The notes under the pieces are model-generated. The model had not been told where the DNA came from. It made no database searches and saw nothing but the letters and a program-made list of their open reading frames with translations. The position numbers and the translations under genes are program-made. From assembly GCA_027492255.1 (NCBI GenBank), contig JAPUFB010000003.1, positions 77,889 through 141,888 on the forward strand: DNA of 64,000 nt. The letters are read 5' to 3'. The DNA is from Candidatus Saccharimonadota bacterium. GTDB taxonomy: Bacteria; Patescibacteriota; Saccharimonadia; Saccharimonadales; Saccharimonadaceae. Within the stretch, counting starts at the first letter, position 1. Each line of letters begins with the position of its first letter. This document shows positions 56,364-59,907 of the stretch, piece after piece.

Positions 56364-57644
56364 TTACGGCTTGTCGCTTGGCAACGGAAACTGAACTGCA
56401 AACGCTTCGACTTCTCTCTTCAGTTGCTGGAGTCTATCGAAATCATCTCTCGAATCTATTGCCTGTTTCATCCAGTCGGCGATGCGGGCCATATGCTCTT
56501 CACGTAGTCCGCGCGTAGTAATAGCAGGCGTTCCCAACCTAATCCCACTTGGTCGAAACGGCGGTAATGGATCATCCGGTACGGCATTCTTATTCAGTGT
56601 CAGCCCAATCGCATCAAGCGCTTTTTCGACAACTGACCCATCCACTCCAAAACTTTCCTGAACATTGGCAAGTATAAGATGGTTGCTTGTACCACCAGTC
56701 ACCAGCTGAAATCCTCTCAGCTTTAGTTCTTCAGCTAGGACAGATGCGTTCTTCACTATCTGCTGAGCATATTGCTTAAATTCTGGTCGCAACGCCTCAC
56801 CGAAAGCAACAGCTTTTGCGGCAATACTGTGCATATGTGGACCACCTTGCATTCCCGGAAAAACTGCTCGGTCAACAAGAGTCGGAATATTTTCTAACGT
56901 TTTTTCCGGCGCTCGAAGCGGATTACCCACCACGCCTTTCGACAAAATCAACCCGCCTCGTGGCCCCCTAAGGGTTTTGTGAGTTGTCGTCGTAATAATA
57001 TGAAACCCGTAGTCGAAAGGATTTTTTGCAACACCCCCTACGATAAGTCCGGCAACATGAGCCATATCGGCCATGAGAAGCGCGCCAACTTCATGTCCTA
57101 TTGCCGCAAATTTTGCGTAATCAAGTTCTCGGGGATATGCCGAGAAACCAGCAAGAATAATCTTGGGCTTATGCTCAAGAGCTAATGCTCGCAGCTCTTC
57201 ATAATCAATCTCACCAGTCGCTGGATCCTTCATCTTGTAGCGAATAAAGTTATAAAGATGAGCGCTCCGGGTCACAGGTGCTCCATGTGTGAGATGTCCG
57301 CCATGACTTAAGTCCATAGCAAGAATCGTATCGCCCGGCTGACACCAAGCACTGTAGACTGCCTCGTTCGCGGGAGCTCCAGAATGCGGCTGCACATTAG
57401 CATGATCGGCGCCAAAGAGTTGTTTTGCGCGATCAATTGCAAGCTGTTCGATCTTATCCGTAAATTCCTGTCCGCCGTAATACCGTTTCCCTGGGTATCC
57501 CTCGGAATATTTATTAGTAAAAATACTCCCCATCGCCGTCAGTACGTCGCGACTTACGTAATTCTCACTTGGGATGAGTTCAAGACCGCGCCGTTGGCGC
57601 TCTAATTCTTGCTGTATCAAATCCGCAACAGTCGTATCATTCAT
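56364..57644 (-). CDS. glyA: Serine hydroxymethyltransferase
   Basis: 426 aa PLP enzyme. It converts serine and tetrahydrofolate to glycine and methylene-THF. Features: ELIPSENYVS (residues 18-27), YPGKRYYGG, AMDLSHGGHLTHG, the DMAHVAGLI block, the PLP Lys in TTTTHKTLRGPRGG, and FPGMQGGPHMH. It has an AGGAG site 12 nt upstream. Divergent from the HTH-MurA gene; the 92-nt gap holds the TGTAAT dyads, so both genes may be under the same regulator. Confidence 0.96.
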   Translation of the reverse strand: MNDTTVADLIQQELERQRRGLELIPSENYVSRDVLTAMGSIFTNKYSEGYPGKRYYGGQEFTDKIEQLAIDRAKQLFGADHANVQPHSGAPANEAVYSAWCQPGDTILAMDLSHGGHLTHGAPVTRSAHLYNFIRYKMKDPATGEIDYEELRALALEHKPKIILAGFSAYPRELDYAKFAAIGHEVGALLMADMAHVAGLIVGGVAKNPFDYGFHIITTTTHKTLRGPRGGLILSKGVVGNPLRAPEKTLENIPTLVDRAVFPGMQGGPHMHSIAAKAVAFGEALRPEFKQYAQQIVKNASVLAEELKLRGFQLVTGGTSNHLILANVQESFGVDGSVVEKALDAIGLTLNKNAVPDDPLPPFRPSGIRLGTPAITTRGLREEHMARIADWMKQAIDSRDDFDRLQQLKREVEAFAVQFPLPSDKP

Positions 57645-57689: not shown

Positions 57690-57732
57690 ATTACATTTCT
57701 CTTGTAATTATATCGTATGTGATATAATTACA
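57690..57732. promoter_or_regulatory. Operator-like dyads in the glyA-murA intergenic region
   Basis: A perfect inverted repeat, TGTAATTATATC (57703-57714) and GATATAATTACA (57721-57732), separated by 6 nt, ends 4 nt before the murA start codon. It contains the murA -10 box (TATAAT, 57723-57728). A third half-site ATTACA (57690-57695) forms a second dyad with TGTAAT (57703-57708). The glyA -10 (57677-57682) is adjacent. The XRE-type HTH encoded by the next gene is the natural candidate to bind it. Confidence 0.75.
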
Positions 57733-57736
57733 GCAT

Positions 57737-59254
57737 ATGCTATACAAAGAACGACTTGGAAAATTAATTCAAGAAACACGTAGTTCCCGTAATATGACGC
57801 AAGCTGACCTTGCGGAAGCGCTCGGTACTAGCCAAAGTGCAATCAACCGTATTGAAAAAGGCGGACAAAATGTCAGCCTTGAGATGCTCGCTCGTATAGG
57901 AGAGGTACTTTCCAGCGATATTATTTCAATTAATACAAGTGGCCCTAATCTTGAAATTGAAGGTGGCAAAAAATTATCCGGATCAATCGAGGTAAAGACG
58001 AGTAAAAATGCCGCGGTTGCCTTGCTGTGCGCGGCCCTCCTCAATAAAGGTACAACAACCCTTCGGCGAGTCGCTCGTATCGAAGAAGTTAATCGTATTA
58101 TTGAAGTCCTACAGAGTATTGGCGTAAAAACACGGTGGATCGACGACACAAATGATCTCATCATCACTCCCCCGGCACGCCTAAAACTTGAGGAAATTGA
58201 TGTCGAGGCAGCAGAGAAAACACGTACTGTTATTATGTTCCTGGGGCCACTCCTTTACCAATACCACGAATTCAAACTTCCTTACGCAGGTGGCTGCAAT
58301 CTAGGAACACGCACTGTTGAGCCGCATCTTTCTGGTCTCGCCCCATTTGGCATGTCAGTCGAAGCAAAAACGGGTGCATATCACATTTCTACCACGCCAA
58401 AAAATCCTTCTCGTCCTATTATTCTCACTGAACGAGGCGATACCGTAACTGAAAACGTCATTATGGCTGCAGCTCTTCACGACGGCGTCACAGTTATTCG
58501 TAACGCAAGCCCGAATTATATGGTACAAGATATCTGTTTCTTCCTTGAGAAACTCGGCGTAAAAATAGAGGGTATCGGTACGACACATCTGACGATTACT
58601 GGACTGAAAACTATCAAAAAAAATGTCGAATATTATCCTAGCGAAGACCCGATTGAGGCAATGAGTTTTATCGCAGCGGCTGTTGTTACTAACTCCGAGC
58701 TTACGATTTCGCGCTCACCAATAGAGTTTCTTGAACTTGAACTGGCGATCCTCGAAGAGATGGGGCTTGAGTACAGCTCAAGCGCTGAATACAAAGCCGC
58801 AAACGGAAAAACTCGACTTGTCGATATTACGATCAAGCCATCAAAGCTCAAAGCGCCGAAAGACAAATTACATCCGCTCCCATTCCCAGGTGTCAATATT
58901 GATAACTTGCCGTTTATGGGACTTATTGCAACAGTTGCTGAAGGACGGACGCTCGTTCACGACTGGCTGTATGAGAATCGCGCTATCTACTTTCTCGAGC
59001 TCACCAAGCTCAATGCAAATATCGAACTACTCGATCCACACCGGGTTTATATCAATGGTCCAACACATTGGCGGGCAGCTGACGTCGTGGCGCCACCCGC
59101 ACTACGTCCAACAGTCGTAATACTACTCGCGATGCTTGCCGCGCCCGGTGTATCTAAGCTTCGTAATGTCTATCAAATTGATCGTGGCTATGAACAATTA
59201 GCCGCCCGTCTCAATACTATTGGCGCCGAAATTCATCCCTTCAGGGATCTCTAG
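57737..59254 (+). CDS. murA: XRE helix-turn-helix fused to UDP-GlcNAc enolpyruvyl transferase
   Basis: 505 aa, versus about 420 for MurA. Residues 1-65 are a complete XRE/Cro HTH: MTQADLAEALGTSQSAINRIEKG. Residues 70-505 are MurA, which makes the first committed peptidoglycan precursor. Active-site features are conserved: KTSKNAAVALL (Lys, Asn), the reactive Cys in AGGCNLGTRTVEPHL, and the Asp region PGVNIDNLPFMG. So both halves look functional. The start is fixed by TATAAT about 8 nt upstream and lies 4 nt after a perfect operator-like dyad. This implies a cell-wall enzyme that can bind its own promoter. The frame is continuous, so it is not a sequencing merge. Confidence 0.92.
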   Translation: MLYKERLGKLIQETRSSRNMTQADLAEALGTSQSAINRIEKGGQNVSLEMLARIGEVLSSDIISINTSGPNLEIEGGKKLSGSIEVKTSKNAAVALLCAALLNKGTTTLRRVARIEEVNRIIEVLQSIGVKTRWIDDTNDLIITPPARLKLEEIDVEAAEKTRTVIMFLGPLLYQYHEFKLPYAGGCNLGTRTVEPHLSGLAPFGMSVEAKTGAYHISTTPKNPSRPIILTERGDTVTENVIMAAALHDGVTVIRNASPNYMVQDICFFLEKLGVKIEGIGTTHLTITGLKTIKKNVEYYPSEDPIEAMSFIAAAVVTNSELTISRSPIEFLELELAILEEMGLEYSSSAEYKAANGKTRLVDITIKPSKLKAPKDKLHPLPFPGVNIDNLPFMGLIATVAEGRTLVHDWLYENRAIYFLELTKLNANIELLDPHRVYINGPTHWRAADVVAPPALRPTVVILLAMLAAPGVSKLRNVYQIDRGYEQLAARLNTIGAEIHPFRDL

Positions 59255-59907
59255 ATCGTATCTTTTTGAATCTGCGGTTTGCCGTTTTCCCAAGTTACAA
59301 TACCGATTGGCTTGGCGATAACTACTTCGCGTCCCGCTACTGGACCGCTCAGTTGACAGCTATACATCGTCAATTGTGGATCGATCGTGCGTGCTTCAAT
59401 CTCAATAGCATTTTCTGGAACCTTCTTTTTCTCTGTCACTTCGTATGCATAGCGTGTGCCTTCATAATCAACATAGAGCTGATCGCCAATTTGTAATTTA
59501 TCGATATGATAAAACGGCGACTTAGCACGGGTTTGATCAGGAGTAAGTCCTAGATTAAAACGATGGGCTGCGAGAACATAATTGCCGCCATTTTTGGGAT
59601 TACCACTGCTTGGCGAACGATGTATCGCCCCTTTTTCAAGCGCAGTAGTCTCATCGCCATTAATTTCAACTGTCGCAACGTCAACATTAATCTGCGGAAT
59701 ATAAAGTCGATTTTCGGCCACAGTTGGTTTTTCAGCCATCAACTTCTTTGCAACCACGTCAGTCTGACCTTGAAAAATCTTCATCTCAGGTGAAAGCGTA
59801 TTTATAAGTAAGTATCCGCCCAGCAAAACACCAAACACTGGTATAGCTACAAGTAATTTGCGTGCCTTTGTTTGTTTTTGTATCCCATGACGAATTCGAT
59901 ACCTCAT
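59251..59907 (-). CDS. Sortase family transpeptidase
   Basis: 218 aa. N-terminal basic stretch and a single transmembrane helix (about residues 17-38), then the sortase beta-barrel: IPQINVDVATVEING, catalytic His in VLAAHRFNLG, catalytic Cys in QLTMYSCQL and Arg in GREVVIAKPIG. TATACT lies 10 nt before ATG 59907. It overlaps the convergent murA stop by 4 nt. Probable substrates in the window are the surface proteins at 36843-38939 and 45078-46187, which end in LPAxIxxTGP signals. Confidence 0.92.
   Translation of the reverse strand: MRYRIRHGIQKQTKARKLLVAIPVFGVLLGGYLLINTLSPEMKIFQGQTDVVAKKLMAEKPTVAENRLYIPQINVDVATVEINGDETTALEKGAIHRSPSSGNPKNGGNYVLAAHRFNLGLTPDQTRAKSPFYHIDKLQIGDQLYVDYEGTRYAYEVTEKKKVPENAIEIEARTIDPQLTMYSCQLSGPVAGREVVIAKPIGIVTWENGKPQIQKDTI

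Follow-up and report, generated by a model that had tools for sequence, protein, structure and literature searches.

The locus considered here raises the question of why an enzyme of peptidoglycan synthesis should carry a DNA-binding domain, and what that domain may bind. MurA commits the cell to wall synthesis and is the target of fosfomycin, and the control usually described for it consists of metabolite inhibition and protein degradation. In the window, which is the whole stretch of 64,000 nucleotides that was analysed from a Candidatus Saccharimonadota bacterium, one reading frame joins a helix-turn-helix (HTH) to a MurA domain. The protein is called HTH-MurA below, and its gene has the following parts.

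57737..59254, + strand: HTH-murA gene, 505 aa, ATG start, no internal stop.
57749..57916, + strand: XRE/Cro-type HTH, about residues 5-60; Pfam HTH_3 at residues 12-58, model helices at 3-17, 22-29, 33-40 and 48-58.
57923..57940, + strand: flexible linker, residues 63-68; pLDDT below 50, least conserved stretch.
57947..59251, + strand: MurA domain (EPSP_synthase fold), residues 71-505; assigned by profile matches, active-site residues and model fold.

Both domains were recognized well above the Pfam cut-offs. HTH_3 matched with an E value of 3.4e-12 (46.7 bits, cut-off 23), and EPSP_synthase matched residues 75-489 with an E value of 3e-41 (142 bits, cut-off 22.8). An in-frame stop lies at 57725, four codons 5' of the ATG. 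Between this ATG and the MurA domain, no start codons occur other than Met20 and Met50, which both cut through the HTH; ATG 57737 is therefore the only plausible start. The linker contains no start codon. A start after the HTH, which the initial annotation had named as one of two findings that would refute its reading, was thus not found in any plausible form, and an artefact or a late start could be ruled out. In the AlphaFold2 model (mean pLDDT 89), residues 3-58 fold into a four-helix HTH that a low-confidence linker joins to a MurA fold; the top PDB folds were MurA. Among homologues, the HTH was conserved as well as the MurA domain (0.705 vs 0.72), compared to 0.467 for the linker, and the region of the recognition helix, around TSQSAINRIE, was the best conserved part of the HTH (0.789). 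The fusion is real: one open reading frame encodes a complete HTH, a short linker and a complete MurA, as the initial reading of a full HTH before an intact-looking enzyme had it.

The protein passed the NCBIfam MurA model PRK09369 (330, cut-off 297) and missed the strict equivalog TIGR01072 (317.5, cut-off 392.7), which indicated a divergent MurA subfamily. Lys90, Asn91, Arg163, Cys187, Arg192, Asp389 and Arg483 correspond to Lys22, Asn23, Arg91, Cys115, Arg120, Asp305 and Arg397 of the E. coli enzyme, and the conserved Lys, Asn, Cys and Asp noticed at the outset are among them. Asp369 of E. coli is replaced by Ala455 (about 59099-59101), and the aligned subfamily carries Ala or Gly at this position, whether or not a member has the HTH. 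One paper attributes fosfomycin interaction to Asp369 and Leu370, and links product release and deprotonation to Cys115 and Asp305 (PMC4062475). The source genome (854,584 bases, 99.45% complete) encodes a single EPSP-family protein, HTH-MurA, together with five Mur-ligase matches, and murB lies 1.5 kb upstream of the gene. Judged by its place as the sole family member beside MurB and the Mur ligases, HTH-MurA is very probably the MurA enzyme of the source cell. Canonical MurA (E. coli, Bacillus; EC 2.5.1.7) shares its fold and most catalytic residues, but is only about 25-34% identical, retains Asp369, has neither the HTH nor the operator described below, and is set apart from the HTH-MurA clade in the tree by a long, fully supported branch.

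A survey of the class gave a match in 381 of 392 genomes. The HTH was included in all listed matches from the source family and in the full-length listed matches from a second family, and in a different order of the class, the members that were searched had an HTH-less MurA at 30-35% identity. On these sequences, the fusion appears near-universal in the sampled Saccharimonadales, an order whose members are ultra-small parasites of reduced genome size. HTH-MurA occurs also in Streptomyces, as MurA2, and in a few Paceibacteria, and no relative was found in the viral contigs searched. The early view of MurA as normally a lone enzyme thus holds for canonical MurA, whereas the fusion is no isolated oddity and forms a family in these three groups.

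Directly 5' of the ATG we found a perfect inverted repeat, TGTAATTATATC-N6-GATATAATTACA (57703-57732), with 12-bp arms at 57703-57714 and 57721-57732. Two features were assigned to it.

57708..57727, no strand: proposed auto-operator TTATATCGTATGTGATATAA, the inner part of the inverted repeat, conserved in homologues.
57720..57728, + strand: extended -10-like element TGATATAAT, read from the sequence; part of the right arm, ending 8 nt 5' of the ATG.

A generic promoter scan listed neither a murA promoter nor the TGATATAAT element. With 8 nt separating this element from the ATG, the mRNA may have almost no leader. The TTATATCGTATGTGATATAA 20-mer had one good site in the source genome. A wider regulon in this genome was considered and rejected: only one further site appeared at up to 3 mismatches, the same level as for a control pattern. 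The gene glyA (serine hydroxymethyltransferase, 56364-57644, - strand) and HTH-murA diverge from a 92-bp interval, an arrangement in which the operator might in principle act on glyA as well. On the other side, a gene for a sortase-family protein (59251-59907, - strand) is convergent with HTH-murA.

An 18-bp dyad, TATMTCR-N4-YGAKATA, recurred 5' of HTH-MurA genes in Saccharimonadales, Actinomycetota (the Streptomyces MurA2 family) and Paceibacteria. It takes the form TATATC..GATATA in Saccharimonadales and TATCTCA..TGAGATA in Actinomycetota, with a hybrid in Desertihabitans. In the 75 nt upstream of the gene, TATMTCRNNNNYGAKATA was matched without mismatch in 36 of 46 Saccharimonadaceae genes and with at most 1 mismatch in all 11 actinobacterial genes fetched by protein. 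The latter count covers these 11 loci alone; treating all 33 actinobacterial sites as independent was abandoned, since the other 22 loci had been fetched with the operator pattern. Shuffled upstream regions never came below 2 mismatches to TATMTCRNNNNYGAKATA. Of 2033 random windows taken from other parts of these loci, 4 matched exactly; one locus has tandem sites. At one locus (L234), two operator-like dyads, TATCTCATAGTTGATATA and TATATCACATGTGATATA, stand in tandem upstream of HTH-murA, which suggests that binding may be cooperative in some members.

The right arm of many Saccharibacteria contains TGnTATAAT, and the conserved sequence could thus be merely a strong extended -10 promoter in which the palindrome is incidental. 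Part of the right-arm conservation is indeed promoter conservation, since the arm coincides with the -10 box. The left arm lies in the spacer, and it was examined at sites anchored on the right half alone. Its complementarity in register was 4.98 of 7 pairs; shifts of 1-4 bases lowered this to 3.17 or less, and in 1000 re-dealings of left arms the value was never reached. Compensated variants of the dyad were also found (ATACCA..TGGTAT, TATAGC..GCTATA and TATCTCA..TGAGATA). A left arm that is conserved, complementary in register and compensated, a dyad kept in GC-rich Streptomyces with the different core TGAGATA, and the lack of the dyad in HTH-less relatives make a promoter with an incidental palindrome very improbable.

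An exact operator in all members was not borne out: the strict 18-mer was present in just 43 of 157 class genomes, and the arms were degenerate or altered in some genera. Most g3/g8-like Saccharibacteria (L189-L217) combine the usual right arm with a different left arm, TATTCATCC-YGTGATATAAT, in which TATTCATCC is conserved and non-palindromic, and many f6 members have degenerate dyads. With arms so altered or degenerate, the interaction between HTH and operator may have drifted or changed in both groups.

The Streptomyces genomes offered a second view of the site. The exact actinobacterial dyad was present in 22 of 26 genomes and in a single copy in 19 of those 22 (roughly 7-11 Mb each), while the reversed pattern used as a control gave 0 in the 26. 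In 22 of 22 genomes the exact site ended 11-12 nt 5' of the HTH-MurA ATG. HTH-MurA is also encoded in the remaining four genomes, where the corresponding position is taken by a near-variant in three and contains unread bases in the fourth. Nothing like the dyad was found at the canonical murA1 loci in the six Streptomyces genomes checked. The Desertihabitans member is 62% identical to the window protein, and the Streptomyces members are 69-71% identical to the Desertihabitans member. Streptomyces MurA2 (the SCO5998 family) thus belongs to the same family, as a full-length HTH-MurA whose ATG is preceded by a dyad of the same 18-bp geometry. Streptomyces has canonical MurA1 in addition, whereas HTH-MurA is the only MurA of the source genome. 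A plasmid of Streptomyces anthocyanicus (L290) carries a different MurA paralogue, only 28% identical, beside a class II aldolase gene.

According to published work, SCO5998 of S. coelicolor is MurA2, one of two MurA enzymes, with a predicted DmdR1 site (PMC12161575), and is SigB-dependent (PMC8346170). The passages of these two papers that we drew on mention neither an HTH nor autoregulation of SCO5998. Its membership of the HTH-MurA family is probable through the Streptomyces genomes searched rather than through its own sequence.

In Paceibacteria, presence and absence of the HTH could be compared. The fusion occurred in 3 of 188 genomes, each with an exact operator, and 18 close HTH-less relatives had at least 4 mismatches to the operator in the 300 nt upstream. 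In the tree, each of the three HTH members paired with an HTH-less sister, and in 3/3 pairs the operator went with the HTH; these pairs are too few for significance alone (sign test, p 0.25). These data bear on the idea that some other regulator uses the dyad as its operator and that the MurA-fused HTH has a different DNA target or none. Such a regulator would agree with the left arm changing in some genera while the region of the recognition helix stays similar. It would, however, need to track HTH, phylum and site pattern alike, given that the operator is gained or lost together with the HTH in Paceibacteria and accompanies the gene into a second phylum, almost only at this gene. We consider a separate regulator improbable.

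HTH-MurA and its HTH-less Paceibacteria kin formed a fully supported clade on a long branch, and the actinobacterial MurA2 (L009, L114-L123, L148-L169) nested within Saccharimonadales. An arrangement with Saccharimonadales as one group without the actinobacterial MurA2 was rejected (p-AU 8.9e-5). Cultivated Saccharibacteria grow on host actinobacteria, as one study states (PMC10633639). Together with the nested position of MurA2, this makes a gene transfer out of the epibiont lineage and into the host phylum the simplest reading. The transfer is probable on the present tree, in which the long outgroup branch calls for caution, and it would have carried the regulatory site along with the gene.

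Taken together, HTH-MurA is best read as a bifunctional protein, at once enzyme and single-target autorepressor, and it very probably regulates its own gene directly. In the proposed mechanism, the cell's MurA would dimerize on DNA through its N-terminal HTH, and two HTH heads would occupy the 18-bp dyad, which overlies the spacer and the -10 region of the murA promoter. Because the operator covers these elements, the bound dimer should exclude RNA polymerase, and the regulon would be approximately the murA gene alone. From the sequences we infer binding by the MurA-fused HTH, its dimerization, and repression rather than activation. Characterized MurA enzymes are usually monomers, so dimerization would have to come from the HTH or from the DNA. 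XRE-like helices can mediate protein contacts, and an HTH serving solely for protein-protein contact, dimerization or localization, with no regulatory role, would draw on this ability; the best conserved HTH part is the recognition-helix region and the operator correlates with the HTH, which leaves such a role with very little probability.

The remaining issue is whether an autorepressing HTH-MurA would respond to its substrates. It is possible, though speculative, that they modulate binding to DNA. It is also quite possible, if short of probable, that HTH-MurA is a plain autorepressor sensing its own concentration, with binding unaffected by MurA substrates. Simple homeostasis needs no more than a single-site regulon, and the variable, disordered linker provides no obvious allosteric path; on the other hand, plain autorepression gives no reason for fusing the HTH to MurA instead of encoding it in a separate gene, and the enzyme-repressors PutA and BirA are ligand-controlled. 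We advance only tentatively the fuller picture of a peptidoglycan-precursor sensor that reports active-site occupancy at its own operator, a module which would stem from Patescibacteria, have moved once from Saccharibacteria to Actinomycetota, and be kept in Streptomyces as MurA2 with a single operator. The coupling of synthesis to transcription proposed in the initial annotation is therefore supported in its DNA-binding part, by a conserved, cognate-looking operator at the protein's own promoter and for one gene, while control by metabolites as in BirA or PutA is an analogy.

The conserved operator at HTH-murA is new here. No earlier description of HTH-MurA or of MurA autoregulation was found in the open-access literature, so novelty is not proven, and the main text of a published Saccharibacteria transposon study does not discuss murA or peptidoglycan. 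If MurA does repress its own gene, as is very likely, it would represent an enzyme-repressor of a new kind, placed at the entry to peptidoglycan synthesis, and the Streptomyces relatives make autorepression directly testable in a tractable laboratory organism.

Among known systems, PutA and BirA are comparable in that one polypeptide combines enzyme activity with repression of genes of its own pathway (PMC6978683); group II biotin ligases also have an N-terminal HTH (PMC4016012). HTH-MurA likewise has an enzyme and a DNA-binding domain in one chain. The catalytic folds are unrelated, and BirA and PutA control operons, whereas HTH-MurA apparently controls only itself. The best NCBIfam match of the HTH was the couple_hipB subfamily, at 48.5 bits and below the cut-off of 71.65. 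The HipB operator is TATCC-N8-GGATA. It resembles the HTH-MurA dyad in its 18-bp span and its TAT/ATA ends; in contrast to HipB and other XRE-type repressors, HTH-MurA has no toxin partner and is fused to an enzyme.
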